Translations under genes and position numbers: made by a program
Notes under the pieces: generated by a model
The model's input: the letters and a program-made list of their open reading frames with translations, nothing else
What the model was told of the DNA's origin: nothing
Database searches by the model: none
NCBI GenBank assembly: GCA_037200385.1
Contig: JBBCGL010000001.1
Location: forward strand, 1,364,001 to 1,428,000
Length of the DNA stretch: 64,000 nucleotides
Reading direction: 5' to 3'
Source: Rhizomicrobium sp.
GTDB taxonomy: Bacteria; Pseudomonadota; Alphaproteobacteria; Micropepsales; Micropepsaceae
Shown: in pieces, positions 1 through 26,179 of the stretch
How positions within the stretch are numbered: the stretch's first letter is position 1
Layout: every line of letters starts with the position of its first letter

Positions 1-1769
1 TAGAGGGAGCCGATCGCGAGAACGTCGAGCCCCGTACCCATGAAGCAGCGAAAGGCTTCATCGGGTGAGCAGACGATCGGCTCTCCGCGAATGTTGAAGC
101 TCGTATTCACCAACACCGGGCAGCCCGTGTGCCGGGCGAAGGCCGAGATAAGCGCGTGAAAGCGCGGATTGGTCTCGGAGTCGACGGTCTGAACGCGAGC
201 CGTATAATCCACATGCGTCACAGCCGGGATCTGCGACCGCGGAACGTTGAGTTTGTCTATGCCGAAAAGAGCTTCTTGGTCCGGGGTCATCGCCCGGCGG
301 TGTTGTTCCGCCACCGCTGCGACGAGCAACATGTATGGGCTTGAGGAATCGAGGTCGAACCAGCGGCCCACTTCCTCGCGCAGCACTGCGGGCGCGAAGG
401 GCCGGAACGACTCCCTGAATTTGACCTTGAGATTCAACTCCGACTGCATCGCAGGCGAGCGTGGATCGGCCAGAATGGAGCGATTGCCGAGCGCGCGCGG
501 GCCGAACTCCATTTGGCCTTGGAACCACCCCAGAGCCTTGCCCTGGGCGAGATCGGACGCCGCCCGTTCAACCAATTCCTGCTCGCCAAGGCGGGTGAAA
601 GTCGCTCCCGCCGCCTGAAGGCGCAAAGATGTCTCGTCATCGTCGAACGAAGGACCGAGAAGCGCACCCCTCATCCCGTCTCGTGGGCCGCTCACGTGCC
701 TCCGGCCCCCCTTATAGAGGTGGTATGCGGCCAAGGCAGCGCCAAGCGCACCGCCCGCATCTCCGGCTGCCGGCTGGATCCAGAGGTTCTTGAATCGACC
801 ATCGCGGAGAATTCTCCCGTTGGCGACGCAGTTCAAAGCAACACCACCGGCAAGACACAAATTGCGGGCGCCACTATCGGCTGCAAGCGACCGCGTAAGG
901 CGAAGCATCACCTCTTCCGTCACCGCCTGAATTGAGGCAGCCAGGTCCATATGACGCTGCGTCAGCGGCTCTTCAGGATCGCGAGGAGGCCCACCGAACA
1001 GACGGTCGAAGCGGGGTCCGGTCATCTTGAGACCCGTGCAATAGTCGAAATAGGACTGATCAAGCCGGAAGGTCCCGTCAGGCTTAAGATCGATCAGATT
1101 GTCGAGGATCGTGTTGGCATATTTGGGTTGCCCGTAAGGCGCCAACCCCATCACCTTGTACTCGCCTGAATTCACCCTGAACCCGGTATAGTAGGTGAAA
1201 GCGGAGTATAAGAGGCCGAGGGAGTGGGGAAAATAGAGCTCCTTTTCGATCACGAGGTCGGCACCCCGGCCGAACCCGGCCGAGGTCGTCGTCCATTCTC
1301 CGACACCGTCCATCGTAAGAATTGCGGCCTCGTCAAAAGGCGACGGAAAAAAAGCGGAGGCGGCGTGACTTTGGTGATGCTCGCAAAATAGCAAGCGATC
1401 TTCTCCGTCGAAATCCGGCGCGATTTTTCGCAGTTCGTCGCAGAGCAGCGTCTTCTGAAACAATTTTCCATTCAGCCAGAGCGGAATGGCCTGGCGGAAC
1501 GAGCGGAAACCCTTCGGTGCGGACGCAAGGTAGGTTCCCAGAAGCCGTTCGAACTTGCGAAACGGTTTGTCATAGAAGGCCACATAGTCGACATCTTCCA
1601 GTCCGCCGCCCGAGGCCTTCAGGCAATAGTGCAGCGCGTTGCGAGGGAAGCCGGCGTCATGCTTTTTCCGGGTGAAACGTTCTTCCTGCGCGGCTGCAAC
1701 GATCCGGCCGTCGTCTATCAGCGCGGCCGCGCCATCGTGATAGAATGCCGAGATGCCTACGATGCGCAT
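1..1769 (-). CDS. NodU/CmcH-family O-carbamoyltransferase (3' end cut by window edge)
   Basis: The family transfers a carbamoyl group from carbamoyl phosphate to a hydroxyl of a small molecule or sugar. The reading frame is open from the ATG at 1769 to the left edge. The N-terminus has the family opening GISAFYHDGAAALI followed by AAAQEERFTRKKHD. Further on are a GVGEWTT-like segment, YKVMGLAPYG, the CLAGGVALNCVANG block and, close to the left edge, VNTSFNIRGEPIVCSPDEAF. About 590 residues are visible and only a short C-terminal tail should be missing. It is the last visible gene of a minus-strand operon headed by the phosphopantetheinyl transferase, so a role in carbamoylating the cluster product is plausible but inferred. 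An alternative is carbamoylation of a surface sugar, since SxtJ-like and SGNH partners also occur with polysaccharide genes. Confidence 0.88.
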   Translation of the reverse strand, partial: MRIVGISAFYHDGAAALIDDGRIVAAAQEERFTRKKHDAGFPRNALHYCLKASGGGLEDVDYVAFYDKPFRKFERLLGTYLASAPKGFRSFRQAIPLWLNGKLFQKTLLCDELRKIAPDFDGEDRLLFCEHHQSHAASAFFPSPFDEAAILTMDGVGEWTTTSAGFGRGADLVIEKELYFPHSLGLLYSAFTYYTGFRVNSGEYKVMGLAPYGQPKYANTILDNLIDLKPDGTFRLDQSYFDYCTGLKMTGPRFDRLFGGPPRDPEEPLTQRHMDLAASIQAVTEEVMLRLTRSLAADSGARNLCLAGGVALNCVANGRILRDGRFKNLWIQPAAGDAGGALGAALAAYHLYKGGRRHVSGPRDGMRGALLGPSFDDDETSLRLQAAGATFTRLGEQELVERAASDLAQGKALGWFQGQMEFGPRALGNRSILADPRSPAMQSELNLKVKFRESFRPFAPAVLREEVGRWFDLDSSSPYMLLVAAVAEQHRRAMTPDQEALFGIDKLNVPRSQIPAVTHVDYTARVQTVDSETNPRFHALISAFARHTGCPVLVNTSFNIRGEPIVCSPDEAFRCFMGTGLDVLAIGSL

Positions 1770-1848
1770 CGCAGGTATGACGGGACATCGTGCGGCCGCC
1801 GCGACCTTCGCCACGACGACCTCAAATCCGCCGCGCTGAACCGCGCCA

Positions 1849-2088: not shown

Positions 2089-2210
2089 TCGACCGACAAT
2101 CTCCCGGATTGCTGGATGTCGCCACGCTATGCTCGGCGCTCATGCCACAGAGAACCCGCAGAATTCAACCTGTCAAGGCCCGTCCAAGCCAAGTATCCGA
2201 CGGGTTGATT

Positions 2211-4190
2211 CTAAAGCCAAATCGCCGAAGCGCAGAGCGCGTTCTCGACGGATTGGCGCATCCGGGCCAGATCCGAACCGTATGCAGCTATCGAGAACGC
2301 CCGCTCATTCTGGCGATATCGGTCCACGTGACGCTCATGAATTCCGATCAGCTCCAGGATGCGCAACAGCAGCCGATCCAACGCCTCGATATGCCCCGCG
2401 GCGGCCTCTTGGCGGCTTTGCGCGATCACGATGGCGACGACCAGTCCTTCGATCAGTCTCTCGATGTCCCAGCGTGCATACAGCATGGAAAGTCTCGACT
2501 GGGTTCCATAGCGGAAAGCCTCACGCGTATACCACCGCGTGACGGTTCGGATCCGCTCGCCGATCGTCGGCCGGAAGATCGCGCTATCGGACGTCAGCTG
2601 GTCTCTCACCTTCTCGATGATAGCGCGTTGATACGCCCCTCTGAGATCGAGATCGATGTCGAGCGGCTCACCGTTCTGCCGCAAGATGATTTTCTCATAG
2701 TCGTTCGACGAAAAGCGGATCGGCTCAAGCAGAGGGGCAGCCGAGAGGCGGCCGGCGAGACCGGCGTTTTCATACGCCGCCGAATAGCCGCGGAGCACGC
2801 GGTAGAGAAAGAATTCCGGGAACGACAGGATTTCGTGGCTCATGGGAATCCATGACCCCGAGAATTCGATGTTGGCGGTGAAGATCGGATGCTGCCGATT
2901 CGACTCGAAAAAGTTTTTGATGCACGCGCCGAGCTTCTCATCAGCGGGAGGGTCGCTGGGATGCGCATGTCGTTGGCCCTCCACAAGCGCCGCAATTTGC
3001 AAGCGATCGATCGGCCAATCCATGCAGTAGTAGTCGATCAGCGTCTGCCCTGGAGCGTACAGGTAATTGGGCGTCGGCAGCGTAATCTCAAGGCGCGAGC
3101 CCTCGACCAAACCGGTCGCACGATGATCGTCCCGGATGAGCTGCGCCAAAGCGAGCGCGATCCTTTCGTGGCCGGCTCCGGTCGGATGGCAATAGTCGAT
3201 AAAATGCTCGGCAGTCAGGATCGGCGCCAAGTCGAGAATGCGGACGTCGCTGTTCGAGGCGAACGTCGCAATCGCGTCACGATATTTCTCGTGTATCCGG
3301 TAGACCGAACCGTCCGCTTCAAGCGCCTGCCGCCCCAGATCGGCGGCTCCTTCGCGATCATCGCGCCATTCCATGAGCCGCGCGAGATTGTACAATATGA
3401 TGCTATCGTAGCCGGGAAACTGCCCGAGCAAAGCCCGCAGCTGGCGTTCTCCAGCCAAGTCGCCCAGCCGGGCCCGCGCGCAGGCCAGATTGTGCCTGGC
3501 GATGAAGCCCGCGACCCCGGCAGTCGGCGCGACCGGCTGCCACGACGCGATAGCCTCGGCCCAGCGCCCCGCGGTATAATGCCCGATCCCGCCACTCAAT
3601 CGCTCCGCGATGTCGTCAGCCGGCTGATTCTTGATCTCATAACCCAATCGATCCAGATCATCCAAGTAGCACATGTATGAGCTGTTCGGGGTTCCAACAC
3701 CGCACGGGAACCGGGCATTCGCGACCGGGTTGATGAGAATGACCTTCGTCCCCTGACGCGTGGCGCGGCGAACGATGGACCGCAAGTTCTTGCGGAATTC
3801 CAGTGGCGTGGTCGCCGGGGCTGGCGGCGCAACCCGATGTTGGAACCGAAAGCGCGGCGGTGAAAGGACGGGACGAAACTGCCTCGCCGGCGGCCTTGTG
3901 ATCCAAGCCGTTAAGCTTGCCTTGGCCGGGCTGTAGTAGCCCTTTTGAGCCGAGTGAGCGCCTTCGTTGTTCCCCAAATAGATGATCAGGTAATCGGTGC
4001 GCTCCTGCGCGCCGACCGCGTGAAAGAAGCGGCTCGCGTCGGCCGACGTGAAGCCCGGCACCGCATAGTTCGATAGCTGGACGTCCATCTCCTCACGCAG
4101 ATGAGCGAGCAGCCTGGCGGGATAGCAGTCTCTTCCAAGGCCGATGCCGCTGCTGCTCGAGTCCCCCAGAATCGCAATTCGAAGTGGCAT
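2211..4190 (-). CDS. SGNH/GDSL-type hydrolase-like protein with a large unknown C-terminal region
   Basis: The protein has 659 residues. The N-terminal half shows an SGNH-hydrolase plan: a nucleophile block AILGDSSSSG with Ser11, a NYAVPG block, an IIYLGNNEG block in the place of the usual GxND, and a late DYCHPTGAGH block supplying the Asp-x-x-His pair near residue 340. Between these blocks is a helical stretch (about residues 195-300) that looks TPR-like. The last 300 or so residues match nothing I recognise. SGNH enzymes cleave or transfer esters such as acetyl groups. No signal peptide is evident, so the protein is probably cytoplasmic. It lies 57 bases downstream of the phosphopantetheinyl transferase gene in the same operon. 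A deacylase or acyltransferase acting on the cluster product is possible; a polysaccharide role cannot be excluded. Confidence 0.72.
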   Translation of the reverse strand: MPLRIAILGDSSSSGIGLGRDCYPARLLAHLREEMDVQLSNYAVPGFTSADASRFFHAVGAQERTDYLIIYLGNNEGAHSAQKGYYSPAKASLTAWITRPPARQFRPVLSPPRFRFQHRVAPPAPATTPLEFRKNLRSIVRRATRQGTKVILINPVANARFPCGVGTPNSSYMCYLDDLDRLGYEIKNQPADDIAERLSGGIGHYTAGRWAEAIASWQPVAPTAGVAGFIARHNLACARARLGDLAGERQLRALLGQFPGYDSIILYNLARLMEWRDDREGAADLGRQALEADGSVYRIHEKYRDAIATFASNSDVRILDLAPILTAEHFIDYCHPTGAGHERIALALAQLIRDDHRATGLVEGSRLEITLPTPNYLYAPGQTLIDYYCMDWPIDRLQIAALVEGQRHAHPSDPPADEKLGACIKNFFESNRQHPIFTANIEFSGSWIPMSHEILSFPEFFLYRVLRGYSAAYENAGLAGRLSAAPLLEPIRFSSNDYEKIILRQNGEPLDIDLDLRGAYQRAIIEKVRDQLTSDSAIFRPTIGERIRTVTRWYTREAFRYGTQSRLSMLYARWDIERLIEGLVVAIVIAQSRQEAAAGHIEALDRLLLRILELIGIHERHVDRYRQNERAFSIAAYGSDLARMRQSVENALCASAIWL

Positions 4191-4247
4191 CGGTTGGCGC
4201 CTTTGGGAAGCTCATGCGGGAGAACGTTTGCCGCTCAATTTCCCGCT

Positions 4248-4922
4248 TCACTTGCCAGGACCGGGAAGCGTAAGGGCGGCCAGGACGTAATCCTGGGTCA
4301 TGCGGAAGCGGCCTCGAAAATGCCTCGTCAAAGGCCAAGGCTGGCGACGGGGATTCATCTCGATATCAAATACTCCTTCATTCGGAACGACAGAGACATT
4401 CGCATCCTGGAACCCCAAATAGCGGCGGCCGGCAGAGGAAGGCAGCGCCTTATAGAGGCACTCCTTCGCACTGAATACGAGCGTCGGCCAATCGGCCAAG
4501 GAGCCATCCGCAGGAGGGGCTGCGTTTTTGATCCAACGTTGTTCGGCTGGTGTGCAGATATGGGAAACCAACTCTGGGCCGATGGCACGGCGTCGTTCGG
4601 CATCTATCCCAATTCCGGCAAAGGCGTCTTGCCACGCAACTGCGGCCGCGCAGAAACCTCCGCTGTGCGTGATGCTTGCGACAACGCCGACCGGCCACAC
4701 CGGCGCGCGATCGGGACCCACCGAAAGGATATCCGTCGAGAGGCCCAGCACCTGCAGCGCACGTCGCGCGCAGGCTCGGCCGGCCCGGAATTCCCGGCGG
4801 CGCTTCTCGACCGCTCGTTCCAGGAAGACCTCCTCTTCGCTTCGGTGCGGCGTGTTCCACATGTCCGGGGTCGCTTGCTCGACAACCGCCGGTAGAGGAA
4901 GCAAGTCTCGCATCGTGGACAC
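4248..4922 (-). CDS. 4'-phosphopantetheinyl transferase (EntD/Sfp type)
   Basis: The enzyme converts apo carrier proteins to holo form with the phosphopantetheine arm of CoA. The 224-residue protein has the EntD-type RRREFRAGRACARRAL segment, an ASITHSGG block, the metal-binding GIDAE motif and the FSAKECLYK motif with the catalytic Glu and Lys. Length fits the family. A GGAGG ribosome-binding site at 4931-4935 lies 8 bases before the GTG at 4922, whereas it is 17 bases from the in-frame ATG at 4913, so the GTG is preferred. It is divergent from the radical SAM/NRPS genes and should activate the four carrier domains encoded at 6667-20759. It also heads the operon that ends with the carbamoyltransferase. 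Confidence 0.93.
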   Translation of the reverse strand: MSTMRDLLPLPAVVEQATPDMWNTPHRSEEEVFLERAVEKRRREFRAGRACARRALQVLGLSTDILSVGPDRAPVWPVGVVASITHSGGFCAAAVAWQDAFAGIGIDAERRRAIGPELVSHICTPAEQRWIKNAAPPADGSLADWPTLVFSAKECLYKALPSSAGRRYLGFQDANVSVVPNEGVFDIEMNPRRQPWPLTRHFRGRFRMTQDYVLAALTLPGPGK

Positions 4923-5068: not shown

Positions 5069-6523
5069 ATGCAGGGCGCTATCAGCACGGTGGCGGAGAT
5101 GCGCGAGCATATCCGCAGCAGGCGGGGACGAAGGCAGTCGAACAAGGTTCTGCATGCTCATCCGTCGCCCCTTTTCTGGCGCGACCCTGAAGCCCCCGTG
5201 GTCGACATCATCAACAATCCGGCCGTGTCTGGAGGGGGACCCGTCAGCCTCTACGTAGCTACGCCCTACTGTCTTCCGACGAATCCTACCCGTTGCGGGT
5301 TCTGCCTGTTTCCGAGCGAGGACTACCATCGCTCTTCGCAGCTGGACGAATACCTCCACTACCTCTCGTTGGAATGCGACTTGTACCGTCCGCACGTCGG
5401 AAGCCTTCCGGTTACCAGCGTCTATTTCGGCGGGGGAACGGCCAACCTCTATCGAGATGGAGTCTATCGCCAGCTCTGCGACGTGGTGCGAAAGCTCTTT
5501 CCTCTGCTCAGCGCGGACGCAGAGATCACGCTCGAAGGCATCCCACAGCTCTTCAATGATCGAAAACTGCGCGCGATGAAGGACGCCGGGATCAACCGCG
5601 TCAGCATTGGCGTTCAACAGCTCCAGGATCGGTTGATCAAGTTTTCGGGACGGAACCAGACGGCCGACCAGGTTTACCGGACCTTGGCTTGGTGCGCGGA
5701 GAACGACGTCGTCACCAGCGTCGATCTGATCTTTGGCTGGCCCACTCAGACGCTTGAGGACATGCTCGGCGACCTGGAGATCCTGGTGGATCTCGGCGTT
5801 CGCCACATCACCCATTACGAGTTGAATGTCGCGGGACGAAGCGACTTCGCCAGGACGCACCGCGACTCGCTCCCAAGCATCGAGGACAATCTTCAGATGT
5901 ACCGGGCGGGCCGGGATTTCCTTCTCTCTCGTGGCTTCCGCCAAGCGACGCCATACGACTTCGAGAAACGGGATCCATCGTCGCCTCGGCAAGGGACCTA
6001 CGCTTACGAAGAGGCGACCCGCAATTTTACCTACGACGGAGCCGAGCAGAAGCGAGTGCCGCAGATGCTTGGACTGGGCTTCGCCGCTGTGTCGATCTTC
6101 CCTGGATCCGCCCGCGATCCCGGCGCCGCTTATATGAACCCGACGACCGTGGCGGATTATGCGAAGGCTTTGGAGGCCGGCCGCTTCCCGGCAAATCGTT
6201 TCTTTGCGTATTCAGAGAAAGACCGTCATCTCCTGGCGATTTTCCAGAGCCTGCAATCCATGCGGATAGACCGGCGCGGTTATCGCGCGGTCTTCGGCGA
6301 AGACGTCTACGAGGAGTTCTCTCTCGTCTGGGAGGCGCTACGCGAGGAGGGCTGGCTCTCGGCAACCGAGGACTTCCTGGAGACGATAGGCGACGGCGTG
6401 TTCTTCACACCGCTTATTCAAGCCATCCTGGCGCAGGAGCGGGTGAAGGAAATTCAGCAGCAGAGTTCGGGCAAACCGGCGAGACCGATGGTTCAGCTGC
6501 GCGTCCAGCCGACAAGTACCTAA
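5069..6523 (+). CDS. HemN-like radical SAM protein with atypical CX7CX2C cluster motif
   Basis: The 484-residue protein follows the HemN/HemW plan. It has ATPYC..., a GGGTANLY block matching the SAM-binding GGGT, TLEGIPQLF, and the RVSIGVQQLQD...FSGRNQT block. The cysteines that should bind the 4Fe-4S cluster are Cys68, Cys76 and Cys79, spaced CX7CX2C rather than the canonical CX3CX2C. The aromatic residue before the last Cys (GFC) is conserved. HemN-like proteins in biosynthetic clusters methylate or cyclopropanate unactivated carbons, or act on other substrates. True haem synthesis is unlikely because a standard hemN lies at 42157-43485. I chose the ATG at 5069; a TTG nine codons earlier (5042) is possible. 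It is 143 bases upstream of the NRPS gene and is probably co-transcribed. Confidence 0.85.
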   Translation: MQGAISTVAEMREHIRSRRGRRQSNKVLHAHPSPLFWRDPEAPVVDIINNPAVSGGGPVSLYVATPYCLPTNPTRCGFCLFPSEDYHRSSQLDEYLHYLSLECDLYRPHVGSLPVTSVYFGGGTANLYRDGVYRQLCDVVRKLFPLLSADAEITLEGIPQLFNDRKLRAMKDAGINRVSIGVQQLQDRLIKFSGRNQTADQVYRTLAWCAENDVVTSVDLIFGWPTQTLEDMLGDLEILVDLGVRHITHYELNVAGRSDFARTHRDSLPSIEDNLQMYRAGRDFLLSRGFRQATPYDFEKRDPSSPRQGTYAYEEATRNFTYDGAEQKRVPQMLGLGFAAVSIFPGSARDPGAAYMNPTTVADYAKALEAGRFPANRFFAYSEKDRHLLAIFQSLQSMRIDRRGYRAVFGEDVYEEFSLVWEALREEGWLSATEDFLETIGDGVFFTPLIQAILAQERVKEIQQQSSGKPARPMVQLRVQPTST

Positions 6524-6666: not shown

Positions 6667-9600
6667 ATGATCCCGCGCGGTTCCGCACGCGAGGGAGAGG
6701 CGGTAAGGGCTTTGAGTCCCGCGGGGAAGCGCGAACTGCTCGCGCGGCTTCTGCGGGAGCGGGAGACTGGGGCATCGCTCGCGCTCCGGCCGGAGCCGGG
6801 CGGACGCCATGAACCGTTCCCGCTCACGGACGTCCAGCAGGCATACCTTCTCGGTCGCAGCGGGTACGGCGAACTCAGTGGCGTGGGGGTTCATGGCTAT
6901 GTCGAAATCGATTGCCTCGACCTCAATGTTACGAGGCTCGAAGACGCGTGGCGCAAGCTCATCGAGCGGCACGACATGCTCCGAGCCGTCATTCTGTCGG
7001 ATGGTCGCCAGTGCGTTCGCCCTTTCGAAGAAGCACCGCGCTTCGACATCCCGTGCGACGACTGGCGAGGTGTCGAGCCCCGGGAGATCGATATCAGGAC
7101 CGCGAAAATCCGGGAGGAGATGTCGCATGAGGTGAGGCCGGCCGACGGCGGCTATCTCTTCGACTTCCGATCCGCGCGTATCGACGATCGCACGACGCGA
7201 CTCTTTCTGAGCGTCGACTTGCTGAATCTCGACCTGGGAAGTCTGGTTATCTTGGTGCGAGAATGGCGGCTGCTCTACGAACAACCCGAGGCCAGGCTTT
7301 CGCCGCTCCCGATCGGTTATCGCGACTACGCCCGTGCGCTTGAGGACGAGGGCAAGTCGCGCCAAGGCTTGAGCGCACTCGAATTTTGGCGGGCACGCCT
7401 TTCGACGCTGCCGCCAAAGCCCGAACTTGCGCATCGCATCGCCGCGAACGCCCTGCGCAAGCCGCGTTTCGTCCGGCGGACGCTGCGGATGTCGCGCCAG
7501 AAATTTGCGCAGTTCGAAAACCGGGCTCGAGGGCATGGTCTGACGCCGTCGTCCGCTCTGCTGGCCGCCTATGCCGAGGTTCTCGCGCTGTACGGGCGCA
7601 ACACTGCGCTCACCATCAACGTGACGCTTTTCAATCGTCGACCGTTCCATCCCGCCGTCCACGATCTGGTCGGCGATTTCACCTCGATGATGCCGGTGGA
7701 CTTCCATGCCGAAACCGGCGGCTTCGTATTGCGGGCAAAGGCGATGCAAGTGCGGCTGTGGGAGGGTATGGAAAAGAGCGCGGTCAGCGGTGTGCGGATT
7801 CGCCGGGAATTCCGGCGCCAGCGCGGCCTGCGCGGAGAAGCGGACCTCAGCGTCGTCTTTACGAGTGCGCTGGGGATCGCACCCCAGGGCGACGGGCTCG
7901 CCAGCTTCGGACGTGTGAGGTTCGCAGTTTCCCAGACGCCGCAAGTCGAACTCGACTATCAAGTCGTTCCGGAGCCGGACGGCGCCGTGCTGCACAATTG
8001 GGACGCGGTCGAGGAGCTCTTTCCCGAGGGACTGATCGACCGCATGCAGGCTTCATTTGCCCGACTTGTCGATCTGCTGGCTCTCGAAGACGCGGCTTGG
8101 GAGCGAGAGACCCTCGACATCTGCGATCCCATCGATCTGCAGCCACGGATCGAAGCGAACCGCACGGCAGCGGTTGTTGTGCCGGCGCGTCTCGAAGACG
8201 CCTTCGAGCGCCAGACCAACCGCAGACCCGACCGTATGGCTCTGGTCGATCTTGCGAGTTCGATGTCCTATGGCGCGTTGTTGGGCGCGGCAGGCTCCTT
8301 GGCGAAGCGACTACGCGAGGCGGGCGTCGCGCGGGGCGACCGCGTGGGGATTCTGGCGCGAGAGAAGCGGGAACAGCTGATCGGCGTTCTGGGCACCCTG
8401 AAGGCGGGCGGCGCATACGTCCCGCTCGCCACGGACGCACCGCCCGCGCGCCGTGCCGCGCTGCTTGCCGCGGTGGGCGCCCGTGCGGTCTGTACCGACG
8501 GGTCGTGCGATCCCGCGGAGCGAGATGAAGCGCGCAGTTGGGTTTCCATTCGAACGGCGATGGACGACGCATCGCACGGCACGGGCGAAGTCGACGCCGA
8601 GGATCTGGCCTATGTGATTTTCACCTCGGGTTCGACGGGCCGGCCGAAGGGCGTCGCTGTCCGGCATCGGGCGGCGTGGAATACCATCCGCGACCTCAAC
8701 GAACGCTTCGAGATCGGCGCCGCGGATCGCGTCCTGGCCGTTTCAAGCCTCGCCTTCGATCTGTCCGTATACGACATATTCGGCCTCCTCGGATCCGGCG
8801 GCGCCGTCGTGGCACCAGCTTTCGATCGTACCAGCAACCCCGCTCATTGGCTCGAACTGATCGAGAATTGTGGCGTAACGGTCTGGAATTCCGTTCCGGC
8901 TCTCATGACCCTCCTCGTCGACGAACTCGAACGGCGCGGCGTCGAGGAGATGGGCGGCTCCCTGCGTCTGGTCCTTCTGAGTGGCGACTGGATTCCCATC
9001 GGCTTGCCCGATCGTATCCGGCGGCTGTGGCCGAAGGCGAAAATCTACAGCCTCGGCGGCGCCACCGAGGCTGGGATATGGTCGACGATTTTCAAGATCG
9101 ATGCCATCGACCAGACTTGGCCAAGCATCCCTTACGGCAAGCCGCTGACGAACCAGCACTTCCGGATCGTCGACCGTCGCGGTGTCGATCGCCCGACCCA
9201 TGTTCCCGGGGAATTGTGGATCGGAGGCGAAAGCCTCGCGCAGGGCTATTGGGACGATCCCGACCGCACCGAAGCAGCGTTCGTCGTCGACGCGCGCACC
9301 GGCCAGCGTTACTACCGGACCGGCGACGCGTGCCGCTACCGGCCCGACGGCCACGTGGAGATCCTCGGTCGTCTGGACCGGCAAGTGAAGATCCGGGGAC
9401 ACCGGATCGAGCCGGGCGAGGTGGAAAGCGTGCTACGGCAGGATGCACGGGTGCGTGACGTCGTGGTCGATGTCCGCGGCGAGGCGCCCGACCGGCAGCG
9501 GCTGGTGGCCTGGGTGATTGTCGACGACGCCACGATGGCCGCCGAACTGGTGAGCGATCTCAAACGCCGGGCGGCGGCAGGCCTTCCGGTCTACATGGTG

Positions 9601-18180: not shown

Positions 18181-18620
18181 GCCGCAGCGGTGCGCAGCAG
18201 CGCAGTCTCATCATGGCCGTAGGCGCGATGCTCGTGCAGGGCAGCTGGGCCGCATATGCAAATTGGGATTTCGGCGCAGCTGCGGGAGTCCGGGCCGGCA
18301 TCGTTCAAGGCGCTCTCAGTTCGGTGATGACTTATGTGGTGACGATGATCATGGAGTGGATCCTCGGCCGCATGGAAAGGGCGTCGCGACCCGTCGCGGT
18401 CGCAGCGGCCGCGGCATCGGCGATCGCGACGATGATCGTATTGCAGGCGGGAATGCACCGGCTCGCCGGAACGCCGCGAATACTTGTCTCGATCTTGCCC
18501 GCCGTGATCGTCGGCGCCTTTTATTGTGCAATATACAGCATCGTCGTCACGCGGCGCGGCGCGGCCCATGCCGGGAGCTGCGAAGCGCCGCGCTACGGCA
18601 GCGAACCCCAGGGAGAATGA
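18177..18620 (+). CDS. small multi-spanning membrane protein of unknown function
   Basis: The 147-residue protein starts with an ATG that overlaps the stop of the thioesterase gene. It has about four hydrophobic segments (roughly residues 10-28, 40-60, 70-90 and 100-122) and a short polar tail. I do not recognise the family. It lies inside the biosynthetic operon and is the only membrane-spanning protein there apart from the hydroxylase at 22384. It might anchor the synthetase or take part in export, but it is too small to be a stand-alone transporter of a known class. Confidence 0.7.
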   Translation: MSRSGAQQRSLIMAVGAMLVQGSWAAYANWDFGAAAGVRAGIVQGALSSVMTYVVTMIMEWILGRMERASRPVAVAAAAASAIATMIVLQAGMHRLAGTPRILVSILPAVIVGAFYCAIYSIVVTRRGAAHAGSCEAPRYGSEPQGE

Positions 18621-18623
18621 GGC

Positions 18624-20759
18624 GTGGGCAGGGACGCCGACATATCCGCGCCGGTCCGCTCTGCCGCGGCGAGCCTCTCCGGCGCCCGGACGCTGTGCGA
18701 GATGCTCACCGCCCGCGCGCAGATGCATCCGGACCGCGTCTTGTATCGCTATGTCGAATCGGCGAATCCCGACGCCGCCGCTCGCGCGCTCACCTTCGGC
18801 GAGTTGCAGGCTCGGGCGCAGCAGCGGGCTCGCCTCCTTCGCGAGACGGCGCGCGAAGGCAGCACGGTCCTGCTGATCTATCCCGCGGGGTTGGATTTCA
18901 TCATCTCGTTTTACGCCTGCCTCTATGCGGGATTGATCGCCGTCCCCGCGCCGCCGGCAATGCCCGGCCGACTGCAGCGCATGTTTCCGCGGCTCACGGC
19001 CATCGCCAGGGACTGCAAACCCTCCTTGGCCCTCGCCAACGCCAAGCTGGCGAACCTGGTGAAATCCGGATTGGCGGACTCCCAGTTCGGCCTCGACGCG
19101 GCATTGGCAGGCGTCCGATGGATCGCGACGAGCGAGGACGAGGAACTGAGCGCCGCGGGCGGCCAAGCCCTGGCCGGGAACAGCGAGATTGCTTTTCTGC
19201 AGTACACCTCCGGCTCGACGGCCGACCCCAAGGGTGTGTGCATCACGCACGCCAATCTCATCTACGGTCTGGCGAACAACGCGGTCGAGGCGGCGTTCGC
19301 GCATGACAGCGTTACCGTTTCCTGGGTCCCCAATTTCCACGACCTGGGTCTCGTCTTCGGGGTTCTTCAGCCGCTTTATGTAGGCGGCGAGGGAATATTC
19401 CTGTCGCCCGACGCCTTCATGCGACGGCCAGCCTTCTGGCTGGAGACCATCTCGCGCTTTCGCGCCTCGCACAGTTCGACACCGAACTTCGGTCTCGAAC
19501 ACGCGTTGCGGCGCGTCACGGATCGCGAGTTGCAGGAAATCGACCTTTCCTCGTGGGTCGTGGCGGTCATCGGCGGAGAGCCGGTGCGCGCCAACACCAT
19601 CGAGAGGTTCGCAGCGCGTTTTGCGCCCTGCGGATTGCGCTACCCCACGCTTTCGGCGTGCTACGGAATGGCCGAGGCGGTCCTGAAGGTCTCCTCCACG
19701 ACGACGCGCGGCGCGGACATTTGTGAATTCGATGCGGCGGCGCTGCGGCAAGGATCGGTCCACGCGCCGATACCGGGCAAGGACACGCGACGGCTCGTCG
19801 CCTGCGGCTGGATTGGGCCCGGCACTCGGGTCGAGATCGTGGATCCCGAAACCGGGCGACGCTGTCTACCCGACCGGGTCGGCGAGATCTGGGTCAAGAG
19901 TCCGAGCATCGCCGCCGGCTACTGGCAGCGGCCAAAAATCACGGCAAGTGCGTTCCAAGCACGGTTGCCGGACGGGGACGGCCCCTTCTACCGGACTGGC
20001 GACCTCGGCTTCATATGGACCGACCAGCTCATTCCCTGCGGCAGGCTCAAGGACCTCGTCATTGTCCGCGGCCTCAACTACTACCCTCAGGACATCGAAG
20101 AGGCGGTGGAGAACGCCCATCCCATCATGCGCGCGGGACGCTCGGCGGCGTTCTCGACGGACGGCGAGACCGAGGAAAAGCTCGTGGTTGTCGCCGAGGT
20201 GCGAGGTTCGCCTTCGAATTTCGGGGAGGCCATCGCCGCAATTCGCAGGACCGTGGTGGATCAAGTCGGCCTCCACGTCGCGCGCGTGGTCCTGATAGCA
20301 TCCGGCAGCTTGCCCAAGACGTCGAGCGGAAAGCTGCAGCGCGCCGCGACCCGAACCGCCCTGGAGGCAGGAGCGCTGCCGGTGCTGCTGGACTGGACCC
20401 TCGCCGATCTGGTGGGCGACCGCTCGTCCCTCGTCGACTATCTCATGAAGCAGCTCTCCGAAGAGCTGTCGCGGCGCGGTGTCCTCGACGACTCGGAGGC
20501 TTTGAATCCGGATCGCTCGCCGATCGAGCTGGGAGTGGACTCCCTGATGGCCGTCGAATTGCTGAACAGCATCCGCGACGAACTGGGCATCCGGATATCC
20601 GCCATTGCGCTGGCGGAAGCGCACTCCGTGAAGGAACTGGCCGCCGCCATCGCCGCACAGCCCTCCCGCCAAGACGAGGATTCCAGCGACGTGACGTCCT
20701 TCACCGACGAGGCCGTCGACAGAATGCTCCACGAGCTGATGAAGGACGATCGCGCATGA
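18624..20759 (+). CDS. fatty-acyl-AMP ligase fused to an acyl carrier protein (FAAL-ACP)
   Basis: A 711-residue loading protein. The adenylating part (about residues 1-575) has FLQYTSGSTADPKG, the FAAL-like SWVPNFHDLGLV block, STPNFGLEHALRR and YRTGDLGF. The C-terminal ACP (about 620-700) has its modified serine, Ser640, in LGVDSLMA. FAALs activate a fatty or aryl acid as the adenylate and pass it to an ACP rather than to CoA. The GTG at 18624 is supported by GGGAGA at 18611-18616. This is the only visible source of a starter unit for the N-terminal Cy domain at 6667. The chain length or aromatic nature of the acyl group cannot be read from sequence. Confidence 0.92.
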   Translation: MGRDADISAPVRSAAASLSGARTLCEMLTARAQMHPDRVLYRYVESANPDAAARALTFGELQARAQQRARLLRETAREGSTVLLIYPAGLDFIISFYACLYAGLIAVPAPPAMPGRLQRMFPRLTAIARDCKPSLALANAKLANLVKSGLADSQFGLDAALAGVRWIATSEDEELSAAGGQALAGNSEIAFLQYTSGSTADPKGVCITHANLIYGLANNAVEAAFAHDSVTVSWVPNFHDLGLVFGVLQPLYVGGEGIFLSPDAFMRRPAFWLETISRFRASHSSTPNFGLEHALRRVTDRELQEIDLSSWVVAVIGGEPVRANTIERFAARFAPCGLRYPTLSACYGMAEAVLKVSSTTTRGADICEFDAAALRQGSVHAPIPGKDTRRLVACGWIGPGTRVEIVDPETGRRCLPDRVGEIWVKSPSIAAGYWQRPKITASAFQARLPDGDGPFYRTGDLGFIWTDQLIPCGRLKDLVIVRGLNYYPQDIEEAVENAHPIMRAGRSAAFSTDGETEEKLVVVAEVRGSPSNFGEAIAAIRRTVVDQVGLHVARVVLIASGSLPKTSSGKLQRAATRTALEAGALPVLLDWTLADLVGDRSSLVDYLMKQLSEELSRRGVLDDSEALNPDRSPIELGVDSLMAVELLNSIRDELGIRISAIALAEAHSVKELAAAIAAQPSRQDEDSSDVTSFTDEAVDRMLHELMKDDRA

Positions 20760-21580
20760 AAGAGACCTTCGCCAATGCCGTCGCGGTCGTGACGGGTGGA
20801 GCCTCGGGAATCGGACGCGGCCTCTGTGAAAAGCTGGCGAGCTACGGCGCCACGGTCGTCATCGCCGATATCGACCGGGCATCCGGCGAGAAAGTGGCGG
20901 CCGAGATCGTGGCGCGCGGCGGGTCGGCGACGTTCGTCGCCTGCGACGTCCGCCGCTTTGCGGAGGTGGATGCACTGCTCGCTGAAACGTTGCGGCGGCA
21001 CGGACGGTTCACGCATATGTTCAACAACGCCGGTGTCACGGTCATGGGCGAGGTCCGCGACATGCTCCCGGAAGACTGGGACGCGATGATCGACGTGAAC
21101 GTGAAGGGCGTCGCCAACGGCGTGCAGGCCGCCTATCCGCGCATGGTCGCCCAAGGCTACGGACACATCGTCAACACCGCCTCCACCGCCGGACTGATCC
21201 CGCATCCCGTCATGATCGGCTACGCCACGACCAAACATGCCGTGGTCGGCCTTTCGATCTCGCTGCGGGTGGAAGCGCGCGCCCTCGGCGTGAAGGTGAC
21301 GGTGGTCTGTCCCAGTTCGGTCAACACCCCGATGATCGAGAAGCTCACCCTGCGCCGTGTCGACAAGGCAGGCATCTTTGCGGATCCGGCCGTCAGTCTG
21401 ATGCCGGTGGAGCGATGCATCGACGGCATCCTCGCCGGCGTGGCGCGCAACGAAGGGCTGGTGATCTTTCCGCGCCGCTCGCGCGTCATCCACCTGCTGC
21501 ATCGCCTAGCCCCGGGTGTGTTCGCATGGTATATGGGCCAGCGGCTGGTGAGGTTTCGCCAGACCGCGCGTACGGCGTAG
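20756..21580 (+). CDS. short-chain dehydrogenase/reductase (classical SDR)
   Basis: A 274-residue Rossmann-fold oxidoreductase with the nucleotide motif TGGASGIGRG, an NNAG block and the catalytic Ser with YATTK. It should oxidise an alcohol or reduce a ketone with NAD(P)H. Its ATG overlaps the FAAL-ACP stop (ATGA), so it belongs to the same operon. The C-terminal 50 residues are basic and hydrophobic, similar to SDRs that act on lipid substrates. The substrate is unknown; the acyl starter or the assembled chain are candidates. Confidence 0.9.
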   Translation: MKETFANAVAVVTGGASGIGRGLCEKLASYGATVVIADIDRASGEKVAAEIVARGGSATFVACDVRRFAEVDALLAETLRRHGRFTHMFNNAGVTVMGEVRDMLPEDWDAMIDVNVKGVANGVQAAYPRMVAQGYGHIVNTASTAGLIPHPVMIGYATTKHAVVGLSISLRVEARALGVKVTVVCPSSVNTPMIEKLTLRRVDKAGIFADPAVSLMPVERCIDGILAGVARNEGLVIFPRRSRVIHLLHRLAPGVFAWYMGQRLVRFRQTARTA

Positions 21581-21613: not shown

Positions 21614-22387
21614 ATGGTGTACCTCTACGCGCACAGTTGGAGCCACGAGCGCGAGCGCCTCGCCGCCATCGAAGGCAGCCTTGACGAATATTCGATCGCC
21701 ACGCTTCTTGCCGTCGGCGTCGGCGCCGGCTGGCGCTGCCTCGAAGTGGGCGCGGGAGCGGGCTCTATCGCGCGCTGGCTGAGCGAAGCGGTGGGACCGT
21801 CCGGCGGCGTGGTCGCGACGGACCTCGAGACCGATCTCCTCGGCGTGCCGCCGGCGAACATGGAAATCCGCAAGCACGACATCAGAACCGACCCGCTTGA
21901 ACACAGCGCCTACGATCTCGTCCATGCCCGCAAGGTCCTGGAGCACCTCGCCGCGCCGCACGACGTGCTGGCGCGCATGGTGATCGCAACCCGGCCGGGC
22001 GGCTGGGTCGTGGTGGAAGACGCCGATCTGGTATCAGCCCTGCACAGCAACTCCGACGATCCCGATCGCTTCCGCGACCTCTACCGCGCCTTCATCGCGA
22101 CGATGCAAGCGCATGGCTATCACCCGGCTCTGGGTCTTTCGCTCGCCGGCATGCTGCGGGCCGCCGGGCTGTCCAACGTGCGCCTTCAAGGCTGGACATC
22201 GGAGTGGACGGGCGCCGGCGAGCGGCCTTCGGTCTTCCTCAGGACCTTCGAGAAGATCGCGCCCCGCGTGATCTCGGAAGGCCGCGCGGGCGCCGCCGAC
22301 ACCGATTGGCTGCTCAGAGAAATCCAGCGTCCGGCGTTTCGCGCGATCAGCGCGACGCATTATTGCGCCTGGGGCCAGCGGCCTTGA
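21614..22387 (+). CDS. SAM-dependent methyltransferase (class I)
   Basis: The 257-residue protein has a class I fold, with CLEVGAGAGSIARWL as motif I, ATDLE as the acidic motif II and RPGGWVVVED later in the sheet. GGGAGG at 21599-21604 precedes the ATG at 21614 with good spacing; an upstream GTG at 21590 is less likely. The substrate class (O, N or C) cannot be told. In some clusters a HemN-like radical SAM protein works with a partner methyltransferase, so pairing with the gene at 5069 is worth noting as a guess only. Confidence 0.88.
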   Translation: MVYLYAHSWSHERERLAAIEGSLDEYSIATLLAVGVGAGWRCLEVGAGAGSIARWLSEAVGPSGGVVATDLETDLLGVPPANMEIRKHDIRTDPLEHSAYDLVHARKVLEHLAAPHDVLARMVIATRPGGWVVVEDADLVSALHSNSDDPDRFRDLYRAFIATMQAHGYHPALGLSLAGMLRAAGLSNVRLQGWTSEWTGAGERPSVFLRTFEKIAPRVISEGRAGAADTDWLLREIQRPAFRAISATHYCAWGQRP

Positions 22388-23346
22388 GCGTCCGGCGGGA
22401 CGGTCACCTGGATATCGCGCCGGGCCGCGACGCCGGGCCATCTTATTCGGTCTGGTTCGTCCCGGTCGTCCTCGCGGCGGTGCTGGCCGCGGCGCTGTTC
22501 GCGGTCTCCGCCGGCGTTCCGCAAGCGGCGTTTTCCGCCGGCCTGTTCGTCACTCTCGTCGCGGTCGGCTTCGCGCTGGAGCGTAGCTTTCCGTTCGAGC
22601 GCCATCCGCGCGACCGCCCGACCGGCGTCCCCATGGAGATCGCCAACAGCCTGTTCAACGCCGTGCTGGTCGGCCAGGCGATAACGATAGGGCTTCCCCT
22701 GCTGCTCACCGCGCTCGTGGGACGCGCAACGGGCGACGCGGGCCGAAACGGCGTGGGAACGCTGCCGGTCGGTTTGCAGGTTCTGCTTTCCTTCCTGATC
22801 ATGGATTTCGCGCGCTACTGGGTCCATCGCTGGCAGCATCGCTGGTACGTGCTGTGGCGCTTCCACGCAATCCACCACTGCATCGCCAAGGTCCGGCTCT
22901 CCAACGCTCTGTTCGCCCACCCCATCGACTACGTCCTCAGGAATGTGCTGCCGCTCCTGATTCCCATGTGGATCGGCTTTCGGCCGTCGGCGGTGTTCGT
23001 TGCGGTCGCCATCGTCCAAGTGCTGGGGCTTCTCACTCATTTCAACGTCGGCCATCGCTGCGGCTGGCTGAGCCATGTCCTTGCGACCAATGAGAACCAT
23101 CGCTGGCATCACAACGTCGATCCGACGCACGGCGCCGACCGCAATTTCGGCATCGGCCTCATCGTCTGGGACATCCTGTTCGGCACCTTCTACCTGCCGG
23201 CGGACCCGGCCGCACCGGCCCGGATGGGACGCGACGGCGAGGCGCCGCGCGGCTTCTGGGACCTCATGGTGCTGCCCTTCAGCCGGGCCCGCGTCGGCGG
23301 CCCGCTCACACAATGGGCCGAGCCGCCTCAACGGGCGGACTCATAA
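22384..23346 (+). CDS. sterol desaturase/fatty acid hydroxylase family membrane di-iron protein
   Basis: About 320 residues, with several transmembrane segments and the histidine-rich motifs that bind two irons: HRWQH, HAIHH, HFNVGH and NENHRWHH. The family hydroxylates or desaturates lipid-like substrates at the membrane. The most likely start is a TTG at 22384 that overlaps the stop of the methyltransferase (TTGA). No good ATG is placed before the first membrane segment. In context it may hydroxylate the acyl chain introduced by the FAAL-ACP, which would create a site for carbamoylation. That link is inference. Confidence 0.85.
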   Translation: MSVRRDGHLDIAPGRDAGPSYSVWFVPVVLAAVLAAALFAVSAGVPQAAFSAGLFVTLVAVGFALERSFPFERHPRDRPTGVPMEIANSLFNAVLVGQAITIGLPLLLTALVGRATGDAGRNGVGTLPVGLQVLLSFLIMDFARYWVHRWQHRWYVLWRFHAIHHCIAKVRLSNALFAHPIDYVLRNVLPLLIPMWIGFRPSAVFVAVAIVQVLGLLTHFNVGHRCGWLSHVLATNENHRWHHNVDPTHGADRNFGIGLIVWDILFGTFYLPADPAAPARMGRDGEAPRGFWDLMVLPFSRARVGGPLTQWAEPPQRADS

Positions 23347-23359
23347 CGGGAGACGGAGC

Positions 23360-23821
23360 ATGCGGTATTTCGAAGACATCGAGATCGGCAACGAGATGAC
23401 GGCCGGTCCCTACGAAGTGACGGCCGACGAGATCGTCACCTTCGCCAAGAAGTGGGACCCCATGCCATTTCACGTCGATCCCGAAGCAGCGAAGAAATCG
23501 CATTTCGGCGGGTTGGTGGCATCCGGCTCGCACACCATCGCGATCTATTACGCGCTGCTGCACGATCTGCGCCGCCGCGCGGTAGAGCCGTTCGCGGCAC
23601 TCGCCGTGCTCAAGCTGGAGATCGAGTTCACCGGCCCCGTCCGCGCCGGCGACAAGATCAGCATCTCGTCCACGCCGATCGAGAAGCGCGAGTCGAAGTC
23701 CAACGACAAGGTCGGCATCACCAAGATGCAGGTCGTGCTGACCAACCAGGACGGCGCCAAGGTGTTGGCGCTGGTTGCGACCGGCATGTTCGCCAGGCGT
23801 CCGACAACGCCGGCGGCGTAG
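23360..23821 (+). CDS. MaoC-like (R)-specific hydratase/dehydratase
   Basis: A 153-residue single hotdog protein. The motif FAKKWDPMPFHVDPE followed by GLVASGSHT is the MaoC hydratase signature with the Asp and His pair. GGGAGACGGAGC precedes the ATG at 23360. The family adds or removes water at enoyl or beta-hydroxyacyl thioesters. In this cluster it could dehydrate the beta-hydroxyl left by the KR, because the PKS module lacks a DH, or it could serve starter-acid supply. Neither can be decided from sequence. Confidence 0.85.
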   Translation: MRYFEDIEIGNEMTAGPYEVTADEIVTFAKKWDPMPFHVDPEAAKKSHFGGLVASGSHTIAIYYALLHDLRRRAVEPFAALAVLKLEIEFTGPVRAGDKISISSTPIEKRESKSNDKVGITKMQVVLTNQDGAKVLALVATGMFARRPTTPAA

Positions 23822-23828
23822 GCGCAAG

Positions 23829-24917
23829 GTGCGGGTTGCCGTCATCGGCGGATACGGCGCCGTCGGCGCGATCGCGGCCCGCGTTCTGGCCGAGGACGCG
23901 GGCGTCCGTGTGCGCATCGGAGGACGCGATCCAGCCAAGACGGCGGTGTTTGCTTCCGAACTGGGCGGCTGCGCCGAAGCGGCGGCCGTCGACGTCACGG
24001 ATGGCGACTCGCTGCACCGCTTCGCACGGGAGTGCGACGTGCTGCTGTATAGCGGCCCGTCCGACATCGAAGCGCGGATGCGGACAGCGCACGCGGCGGT
24101 GGCCGCCGGCGCGCACTACGTCGATGTCGGTACGCCGCTTCCGCTTCGCGACCGTCTGGCAAGCGAACTCGGGCCGCAATTCCGTGCAACGGCACGCGTC
24201 TGCGCACTGGGTGCGTCATGGATGCCGGGCTTGGCGGAGCTGCTCTTCTTCCACGGCGTCGCGCTCGCCCGCGCGCGCCTCGACACAATCGAGCGCATCG
24301 CATTCTTCGCGCGTTATCAAGGCCCGCTGGGTATCGCCGGCGCCGAGGAGATCCTGGACGAGGCGCGGCGGCCGGATGCGGGCGACACGCGAGGCGCGTA
24401 CCGAGGCGGCGTCTGGACCGCGAACGCCAAATCGAACGTGTTCGTCTTCCCCGAGCCGGTCGGCAAACAGATGGTCGTGCCCAATTTTCCCCTGCATCTG
24501 CGCCAAGGCGTCGAAGCCAGTGGGCTCCAAAACCAGGTCGCGCACGTCGCGTTCTGCGTGGGCATTGGCGACCGGCTCATGATGGCGCTAGCGGAGCGGG
24601 CACGATCCGGCAGCGCTCTCGACGCAGACCGGATCGTGCGCGCCAGCCAGGAAGATGCGCAGCGGCGGAGCGCGGGCGAAGCCCTGGTCTTCGCCGCGAC
24701 CGGCACATCGAGCGGGACGCGGCGCGAGGTCGGCGTCCACCTCGTATCGCGCGGCGGGATGGCGCTGATGGGCCTGGTCCCAGCAAGCTTCTGCCAAGCG
24801 CTCCGCGCCGGCCGGATCGAGCGGACGGGAGTCGGCTTCTTTTGGGACCTCGCGCCTGCCGAGGCGATCCTGCAGCCGCTCGCGAAGGCCGGCTACGCCG
24901 TGCGCGTGTCGCCATGA
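23829..24917 (+). CDS. saccharopine-dehydrogenase-like NAD(P)-binding oxidoreductase
   Basis: About 362 residues from a GTG at 23829. The N-terminus is a dinucleotide-binding Rossmann start (VAVIGGYGAVGAIAARVL). The second half follows the saccharopine dehydrogenase/lysine-ketoglutarate-reductase-like layout with GASWMPGL. Family members form or reduce imines or act as uncharacterised oxidoreductases. In thiazoline pathways an imine reductase (Irp3/PchG type) converts a ring to thiazolidine, but those belong to another family, so this protein could be an analogue at most. Its stop overlaps the next start (ATGA). Confidence 0.8.
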   Translation: MRVAVIGGYGAVGAIAARVLAEDAGVRVRIGGRDPAKTAVFASELGGCAEAAAVDVTDGDSLHRFARECDVLLYSGPSDIEARMRTAHAAVAAGAHYVDVGTPLPLRDRLASELGPQFRATARVCALGASWMPGLAELLFFHGVALARARLDTIERIAFFARYQGPLGIAGAEEILDEARRPDAGDTRGAYRGGVWTANAKSNVFVFPEPVGKQMVVPNFPLHLRQGVEASGLQNQVAHVAFCVGIGDRLMMALAERARSGSALDADRIVRASQEDAQRRSAGEALVFAATGTSSGTRREVGVHLVSRGGMALMGLVPASFCQALRAGRIERTGVGFFWDLAPAEAILQPLAKAGYAVRVSP

Positions 24918-26179
24918 CGGTCGACCTTCCGCTGCGGCGCTCCTATTGGGGCCCGGACACCGCCGCCGAGCTTGCGCCGCCGCTGCAGGGCGATATCGAG
25001 GCCGACCTCACCGTTGTCGGCGGCGGCGTCATCGGCGTCTCCACCGCCATTGCGGCCCACGATGCCGGTCTTGATGTCGTCCTGCTCGAGCGCGCCTTCG
25101 TCGGCCATGGTGCCTCGGGACGTGCCGCGGGCATGCTCACCCTTCCTGTCACCTGGGGCGAAGCGGCGGCGCCGTGGCTGGCCGACGATGCCATGGCCAA
25201 GTCGATCCTGCGCTGGTCGCAAGATGCGATCGACGCAGCGGAGAGGTTCCTCGGCGCGAACGGCGTCGCCTGCGGCCTGCTGCGACGGCCTTTATGGCTC
25301 ATCGCGCACGATCAAGCCGGCTACGAGGATCTGATCCGGGCCTCCAGCCTTCTTCGCGGCGCCGGGATCGCCGCCGAGCCGCTGCGCGACTCCTGGCCAA
25401 CGACCTACCGCTCGTTCGGCGCGCTGCGCCTGGGCAACCAGGCCGTCGTCGATCCGTGGAACATGGCGCGCGGTTTGCGGGCGGCGGCCTTGCGGCGCGG
25501 CGTGCGCCTTTTCGAAGGGACCGCAGTCGATGACGTGACGGGCGGGGAGCCCGTCACCGTTCGCGCGCCGGGCGGCACAGTGCGTTCCAAATATGCGGTG
25601 CTGGCTGTGAACGGCTTCTCCGGCGCGCTGAGCCGGCGCGACGACCTTCTGGTCCCCTGCCGGGTCTATGCGGCCGCGACCGCGCCGCTCCCGCCGGCGG
25701 CACGCCAGGCGATCGGACCAGCAGACGACGTCATCCTCAACGATTTCCGCGGCCGATCCGGCGGCCCGCGGCTGTTCGAGCGTTTCCGGCAAAGCGGCGA
25801 GCTAATCTTCGGCGCCTCGACGCTGTGGCCGCCCAAGGACCTGGACCAGGACTGGGACGCGCGCAGCTTCCGCTTCCTGCTGCGCGAGCTGCAGCGTCGC
25901 TATCCCGGCCTCGGCGATCCCCCGATCGCGACCATATGGTCCGGCCTGGAATGCTTTACGCGCAGCGGGCTGCCCATCCTGGACTGGCTACCCAATCTCG
26001 AGAACGTCGCCATTGGCGTAATCGGAAATGGCCGCGGCCTCGGTCTGGGCACGACCTGCGGCCGGCTCTTGGTCTCTCGCCTGCTCGATAAGCCAATGAA
26101 CGACAAGGCATCGGACCTATTTCTATCGCTCTGCTCGCTCGCAAGTGCCGCCGGCCCTGTCGGTACGAATTCAATCTGA
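24914..26179 (+). CDS. DAO-family FAD-dependent oxidoreductase
   Basis: A 421-residue flavoprotein of the D-amino acid oxidase/glycine oxidase type. The FAD dinucleotide motif VVGGGVIGVSTA is at about residues 34-45 and a GNGRGLGLGTT segment near the C-terminus completes FAD binding. Such enzymes oxidise a C-N bond. In this cluster, oxidation of a thiazoline or thiazolidine is an attractive possibility because no FMN-type oxidase domain is present in the megasynthases. It is the last gene of the cluster before the AT-rich gap and the tRNA. Confidence 0.87.
   Translation: MTVDLPLRRSYWGPDTAAELAPPLQGDIEADLTVVGGGVIGVSTAIAAHDAGLDVVLLERAFVGHGASGRAAGMLTLPVTWGEAAAPWLADDAMAKSILRWSQDAIDAAERFLGANGVACGLLRRPLWLIAHDQAGYEDLIRASSLLRGAGIAAEPLRDSWPTTYRSFGALRLGNQAVVDPWNMARGLRAAALRRGVRLFEGTAVDDVTGGEPVTVRAPGGTVRSKYAVLAVNGFSGALSRRDDLLVPCRVYAAATAPLPPAARQAIGPADDVILNDFRGRSGGPRLFERFRQSGELIFGASTLWPPKDLDQDWDARSFRFLLRELQRRYPGLGDPPIATIWSGLECFTRSGLPILDWLPNLENVAIGVIGNGRGLGLGTTCGRLLVSRLLDKPMNDKASDLFLSLCSLASAAGPVGTNSI

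Follow-up and report, generated by a model that had tools for sequence, protein, structure and literature searches.

A predicted lipo-bis-thiazoline assembly line accompanied by a Jaw5/Pfl2-family radical SAM protein in Rhizomicrobium sp.

What would be made by the biosynthetic operon at 5069-26179 of a 64,000-nucleotide stretch of the Rhizomicrobium sp. genome (the window: positions 1364001-1428000 of contig JBBCGL010000001.1, within a single-contig genome of 5.0 Mb)? The operon comprises 12 genes, all on the plus strand, with intergenic gaps of -8 to 143 bp and with starts and stops that overlap along its length, an arrangement that can hardly be put down to chance. Among plasmid records, the best full-length 16S match listed is to Methylosinus, at 88.2%, and the host is taken to be an alphaproteobacterium. 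Gene calls rest on Pfam and NCBIfam scans of the window proteins. The genes suggest a self-contained pathway of nonribosomal peptide synthetase (NRPS) and polyketide synthase (PKS) type, leading to a lipo-bis-thiazoline, with cyclopropanation by a MaoC-like hydratase and a radical S-adenosylmethionine (SAM) protein, and with further tailoring; taken as a whole, this reading could in our judgement equally well be right or wrong.

Three proteins make up the predicted assembly line: an NRPS with heterocyclization, adenylation and peptidyl carrier domains (Cy-A-PCP; 6667..10035; Pfam Condensation-AMP-binding-PP), a PKS-NRPS hybrid in which ketosynthase, acyltransferase, ketoreductase and acyl carrier protein precede a second such module (KS-AT-KR-ACP-Cy-A-PCP; 10028..17422; Pfam KS-AT-KR-PP-Condensation-AMP-binding-PP), and a fatty acyl-AMP ligase (FAAL) fused to an ACP (18624..20759; Pfam AMP-binding-PP). 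Both Cy segments carry DxxxxDxxS, the motif HHxxxDG being found in neither protein, and the eight best Protein Data Bank (PDB) matches of each are EpoB, Irp2, BmdB (three chains), HMWP2, PchE and 6lta (FmoA3), all of them Cy-containing proteins. The adenylation codes, DLYNLSLIW(K) in the NRPS and DLWNLSLIW(K) in the hybrid, were read by anchor motifs, and we take both to be of cysteine type, the substrate being a predicted one. The hybrid has an AT motif that is presumably malonyl-type; of the KS, KR, ACP and PCP motifs that were sought, all are intact. The third protein is assigned as a FAAL because solved FAALs (FadD23, FadD32 and FadD28) are among its best PDB matches; its top matches, 7r7e ('Polyketide synthase') and 3kxw, are not named as FAALs, and in NCBIfam the fatty-acid-AMP ligase models, with scores under their cut-offs, come best after a general NRPS/PKS model. 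Its fusion to an ACP is as in FAAL-initiated lipopeptide or lipopolyketide lines.

The FAAL would activate a fatty acid and load it onto its own ACP, the Cy-A-PCP protein would add cysteine and close a 2-alkyl-thiazoline, the KS-AT-KR-ACP portion of the hybrid would extend the chain by a single malonyl unit, left as a beta-hydroxy group, and the second Cy-A-PCP would add a second cysteine as a terminal thiazoline. These steps follow from the domains and are the well-supported part of the predicted pathway. The likely core thus has two thiazolines, the first of them bearing the acyl chain, joined by a beta-hydroxy two-carbon link. This is the scaffold proposed in an original prediction that had been made from the DNA letters and their open reading frames, and it is supported by the domains, the intact motifs, the cysteine-type codes and the structural relatives of the Cy and FAAL portions. 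The domain order given there (FAAL-ACP, Cy-A-PCP, KS-AT-KR-ACP-Cy-A-PCP) is correct as to the domains, while the sequence of the three proteins is a biosynthetic one: the FAAL gene sits downstream of the NRPS-PKS genes, so it is from function that the FAAL is placed first in the line. No thioesterase (TE) domain ends the line, so release would fall to the stand-alone, type II-like thioesterase encoded at 17419..18180 (Pfam Thioesterase, E 4.1e-34; GxSxG) or to another trans-acting enzyme.

The first gene of the operon (5069..6523) encodes the radical SAM protein, which is HemN-like and in which Cx7CxxC (C68, C76 and C79) replaces the usual CxxxCxxC. The same motif is described at C68, C76 and C79 of Jaw5 and as invariant in polycyclopropanating cyclopropanases (PMC13389473). 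When one genome per species was scanned, 104 relatives came up, and the best 80 were kept; together with two Deinococcus plasmid loci, 82 were read, and Cx7CxxC is present in 81 of these, the exception (L102) being a fragment of only 31 amino acids. One of the loci (L080) belongs to S. albireticuli NRRL B-1670, the source of pfl1-4 (PMC13389473), and because its radical SAM gene lies in that strain after a KS-AT-DH-ACP gene (DH, dehydratase) we take the product to be Pfl2; the window protein is 41% identical to it over 463 aligned positions. Given the same motif, the same cysteine numbers and this identity, the window protein belongs, by sequence, to the Jaw5/Pfl2 family of HemN-like polyketide cyclopropanases in the broad sense. 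The KS-AT part of the window hybrid is matched in 34 of the 82 relatives' loci (a hand count), and both Deinococcus plasmids combine a member of the family with a Cy motif, one of them also with a cysteine-type adenylation code (read by eye). We know of no characterised member of the branch found here. The two-component cyclopropanase C10P/C10Q does not match: C10P has CxxxCxxC (PMC6050322) and not Cx7CxxC, and it pairs with a dedicated methyltransferase; the operon does encode a methyltransferase, of no assigned role.

Plain identity with the Streptomyces-type cyclopropanases is rejected on group-typical residues and trees. Fourteen diagnostic positions separate a 30-member PKS-linked group from 47 others (cut-offs 0.9 and 0.8); membership of the two groups was assigned manually, on context and tree position. 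Among the 47 are L105 and L082, both with KS genes, as well as Acidobacteriota loci for which no hydrolase is shown; the window protein, L033, L039, L061 and L095 were placed in neither group. The window protein has the residue typical of the PKS-linked group at none of the 14 and that of the other group at all 14; L033 and L039 are of the other type at 13 of 14, and L061 and L095 are mixed (7 PKS-type and 5 other, and 9 and 3, respectively). In a tree with an outgroup (83 rows) the window protein is a deep lone branch. Without the outgroup (52 rows, 31 of the 82 relatives having been dropped, 29 as near copies and L102 and L104 as fragments), it sides with 17 rows, 15 of them labelled hydrolase-paired, across a split with support of 97/97; its branch is long, and the program flagged the position as unsure. 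Both the residues and the placement outside the PKS-linked group favour an alternative that we rate at somewhat below an even chance: the assembly line is as described, and the radical SAM protein does not cyclopropanate but methylates, like class C methylases (a thiazoline or the alkyl chain, for instance), or performs some other radical step. Two further points fit the same alternative: in many relatives the gene adjoins one for a hydrolase and the locus DNA examined gave no match to KS-AT, and among solved structures the sequence search picked up HemN and the methyltransferase NocN as the only relatives. Against it, the window protein keeps 82 of the 87 positions conserved in both groups, and members of the other type or side occur in carrier-protein contexts: beside an ACP and a KS (L105), beside a protein with two KS, PP-binding and KR domains (L082), and beside a PP-binding and AMP-binding protein and a phosphopantetheinyl transferase (L039). 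Since such contexts exist among the other-type members, and KS-AT matches in the 34 loci, transfer of a methylene to a carrier-bound alkene seems plausible; a cyclopropane in the product is a lead, not a result.

In the self-contained pathway, the trans-acting MaoC-like protein (23360..23821; Asp/His motif) would make an alpha,beta-enoyl thioester on the starter ACP or on the ACP of the KR module, and the Jaw5-family protein would add a SAM-derived methylene to its alkene, leaving a cyclopropane beside or between the thiazolines. That this enoyl thioester is cyclopropanated and then captured by a cysteine-cyclizing NRPS module, giving a radical-SAM route to a cyclopropyl-thiazoline lipid, is a tentative proposal, rather less likely than not. 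So is its outcome, either a motif like that of curacin or a cyclopropane linking the two thiazolines, made by chemistry unrelated to that of curacin. Curacin A, which unites lipid, cyclopropane and thiazoline in one molecule, would then be a likeness; it owes its ring to a halogenase/HMG-type cassette, in which no radical SAM enzyme is known to take part. A figure legend in PMC13389473 names the curacin pathway and lists Hal, ECH1, ECH2 and ER. Weighing against the pathway as a whole are the residues and the outgroup-free tree placement of the radical SAM protein, the lack of a DH domain in the assembly line, the role of MaoC being putative, and a KR with no clear LDD motif; moreover, the identity of the lipid chain, the mode of release and the sequence of tailoring are predicted only, and several accessory genes have no assigned role. 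In favour of one pathway are the intact motifs, the structural matches of Cy and FAAL, the operon gaps, a phosphopantetheinyl transferase gene, and the MATE pump and luciferase-like monooxygenase genes on the left flank. A quite different suggestion, that the island is decayed or chimeric, with only some genes belonging to one pathway and the minus-strand carbamoyltransferase and SGNH genes as chance neighbours, would accord with a GC content of 58-62% across the first 6 kb (66% window-wide), with the commonness of the carbamoyltransferase in rhizobia and with a probable cysteine synthase remnant on the left; given the intact core catalytic motifs looked for and the overlapping starts and stops, we consider it improbable.

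The original prediction had also held that the core would chelate metals. A metallophore, its two thiazoline nitrogens, beta-hydroxyl and terminal carboxylate binding iron, copper or zinc and its fatty tail serving as a membrane anchor, is to our mind an unlikely product, although the thiazoline/beta-hydroxy/thiazoline unit resembles the chelating part of yersiniabactin-type siderophores. Lusichelins, which are salicyl thiazoline/thiazole compounds, are ligands of both iron and copper (PMC12210259). At 50292-52478, 24 kb to the right of the operon, is the gene for a heavy-metal P-type ATPase, with nothing to link the two. The gene content lends the claim no support: of the 69 TonB plug matches in the genome the nearest stand 39.6 kb away on the right (from 26179) and about 46 kb away on the left (from -3472), so that metal-uptake genes of the kind that attend yersiniabactin, pyochelin and micacocidin are not nearby; the genes scanned include none for a siderophore importer, an aryl-acid synthase or a metal regulator; and a search for E. 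coli-type Fur boxes that allowed 3 mismatches found none (it did not extend to Irr and RirA sites). The product would, in addition, presumably offer fewer donor atoms than its aryl-capped relatives. Chelation is chemically possible; little here favours it.

Should a cyclopropane be made, the Jaw5 family would extend beyond the iterative Streptomyces PKSs and onto an NRPS-PKS line, and the rest of the family, apparently uncharacterised (Acinetobacter, Granulosicoccus, Acidobacteriota and Methylomirabilota), would be opened to functional assignment. Even with no cyclopropane, a fatty-acyl bis-thiazoline line lacking an aryl cap and nearby uptake genes would widen the thiazoline family beyond siderophores. 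Elsewhere in the radical SAM family, four Acinetobacter loci (L062, L064, L067 and L070, near 10-12.3 kb) have the gene followed by a hydrolase gene, the hydrolase of L062 being of alpha/beta type with chemotaxis-type genes upstream. Fifteen loci of Granulosicoccaceae and one relative (including L053 and L043) have it 3' of a gene that encodes a related protein, about 760-810 amino acids long, the two of these that were scanned being GGDEF-EAL proteins. In Methylomirabilota the radical SAM protein continues into a single frame of 803-818 amino acids (L026:9609-12056, with like lengths in L028, L031, L035 and L037), the C-terminal part of which is, in L026, an alpha/beta-hydrolase.

How does the operon compare with systems already known? 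The claim that it matches none of yersiniabactin, pyochelin, micacocidin and coelibactin is supported by gene content as far as this was tested (no aryl-starter gene, C-methyltransferase (cMT) domain or terminal TE in the scanned genes). It shares with the yersiniabactin, micacocidin and massiliachelin lines the cysteine-derived thiazolines and the combination of KS, AT, KR and ACP with NRPS domains. Unlike them, it has no aryl (salicyl or alkylphenol) starter gene among the scanned cluster and left-flank genes, no methyltransferase domain in its synthases and no terminal TE that we could see; it has two Cy modules, each with an adenylation domain of its own; and it adds radical SAM, fatty acid hydroxylase, MaoC, saccharopine dehydrogenase-like and DAO genes. 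For micacocidin and massiliachelin, whose lines build thiazolines and ketide units under aryl caps, the listed domains include FAAL and ACP (PMC6604713). The lusichelin (lus) cluster likewise interleaves cysteine-specific adenylation and heterocyclization modules with PKS, giving thiazoline and thiazole with a vinyl link; it differs in its salicyl cap, its four NRPS modules, its Ox, cMT and TE domains and its TonB, ABC, MFS, AraC and P-type ATPase genes, and 'FAAL' and 'cyclopropan' are absent from the main text of the paper (PMC12210259). Jaw5, Pfl2 and Log2, of jawsamycin and fuelimycin, which are HemN-like with Cx7CxxC at 68/76/79, serve an iterative PKS (KS-AT-DH-ACP) that is accompanied by a stand-alone KR (PMC13389473), whereas the window protein lacks the 14 group-typical residues and is partnered with a FAAL and two Cy modules.

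The plasmid clusters of Deinococcus sp. QL22 and KNUC1210 resemble this one in pairing a Cy motif with a radical SAM protein of that family (41-42%), and QL22 also has a cysteine-type code. In contrast to the operon described here, QL22 has a KS-AT-DH-ER-KR-ACP PKS (ER, enoylreductase), the plasmid clusters bring in nitroreductase/SagB-type oxidase, thioester reductase, aminotransferase and KAS III genes, and they gave no FAAL match at E 1e-8. The KNUC1210 NRPS gene (L024:11746-14400) has stops in the frame examined, unlike the QL22 copy, and the gene table, which omits pseudogenes, lists only its first 288 amino acids. The Chloroflexota locus L081 encodes a C-A-PCP-reductase protein. A Bradyrhizobium plasmid NRPS (H21) has a 41.9% similar module, the best among the matches listed, and was set aside as part of a larger, different cluster.

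Copies of the cluster were sought with the saccharopine dehydrogenase-like gene as marker (threshold E 1e-10) in family, class and phylum samples, which overlap and of which the latter two had up to 5 candidates scored per genome. Besides its own genome, the marker is matched in a single one of the 95 family genomes (27%, along almost its full length), in one of the 384 genomes of the class sample (30%, partial) and in 10 of the 397 of the phylum sample (27-34%, partial); no plasmid record matched. The PKS protein is matched past E 1e-150 in 4 of 119 other genomes (2 candidates scored per genome), at 36-43% over part of its length. In none of these sets, the plasmid records and the 119 PKS-searched genomes included, was a second copy found, nor did a literature search, made with no curated cluster library and with most subscription literature outside its scope, find a described cluster of the kind. 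Thiazoline NRPS-PKS lines are themselves known; it is the combination of a fatty acid, two thiazolines and a cyclopropanase-family enzyme that we did not find described. The same genome has a second small NRPS locus (L118:7708-14420; G000:C1, about 55.7-62.4 kb) encoding A-PCP, Cy-A-PCP-nitroreductase-type oxidase and a thioesterase, with a cysteine-like adenylation code (read by eye) and a Cy-A part 44% identical to that of the window PKS-NRPS.

The remaining genes of the operon encode a small membrane protein (18177..18620) with hydrophobic segments and no match in the family scans, a short-chain dehydrogenase/reductase (SDR; 20756..21580; adh_short, E 7.7e-54), a putative SAM methyltransferase (21614..22387; Methyltransf_23/11/12), a membrane protein of the di-iron fatty acid hydroxylase superfamily (22384..23346; FA_hydroxylase, E 1.2e-26), which is OlsE-like (model E 2.6e-45, below cut-off) and has no PDB match, a saccharopine dehydrogenase-like NADP protein (23829..24917; Sacchrp_dh_NADP, E 2.4e-10) for which no close relative was found, and a DAO-type, glycine oxidase-like FAD oxidase (24914..26179; Pfam and NCBIfam). 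A single-sequence structure model of the saccharopine dehydrogenase-like protein had a mean predicted local distance difference test score of 44.7 and was not interpreted. The SDR, the methyltransferase, the hydroxylase, this putative reductase and the FAD oxidase would tailor the chain.

Three genes on the minus strand point away from the operon. Nearest and divergent from it is that for an Sfp-type 4'-phosphopantetheinyl transferase (4248..4922; 4PPT_N, E 2.2e-26; ACPS, E 7.9e-15), followed by those for a 659-amino-acid SGNH/GDSL hydrolase-like protein (2211..4190; Lipase_GDSL_2, E 2.8e-14), of uncertain membership in the cluster and with no match among plasmid records, and for a NodU-like carbamoyltransferase of 610 amino acids (1..1766, on to about -65; L002:435-2266; Carbam_trans_N/C). 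The last has, among 15 matches listed, 66-67% identical relatives in Sinorhizobium and Leisingera, and because of those in Sinorhizobium its membership is doubtful. Of the partners named in the original prediction, then, the radical SAM protein, hydroxylase, MaoC and DAO oxidase are confirmed by the family scans, and the carbamoyltransferase is present but questionable as a partner; the phosphopantetheinyl transferase, thioesterase, small membrane protein, SDR, methyltransferase, saccharopine dehydrogenase-like and SGNH genes are additions to that set.

To the left of the window, consecutive plus-strand genes encode a protein that is SGNH-like by eye (with no Pfam or NCBIfam match), the luciferase-like monooxygenase and the MATE pump, which may export the product; the cluster may therefore reach to about -3472. 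A scan of 4600-5200 for promoters and terminators detected nothing. An island borne on tRNA-Leu was considered and rejected: the tRNA 3' end occurs once genome-wide (at up to 2 mismatches), so no att repeat was found. L002 holds no direct repeat of at least 30 bases. The probable cysteine synthase remnant is a match over 75 residues of a 310-amino-acid frame (L001:14533-15465; window about -4467 to -3535). Further left lie genes for a TIR-WD40 repeat protein (L001:10383-13439) and a TerB-domain protein (L001:5016-7757), and a CHAT-domain protein is encoded within the window at 57904-60189.

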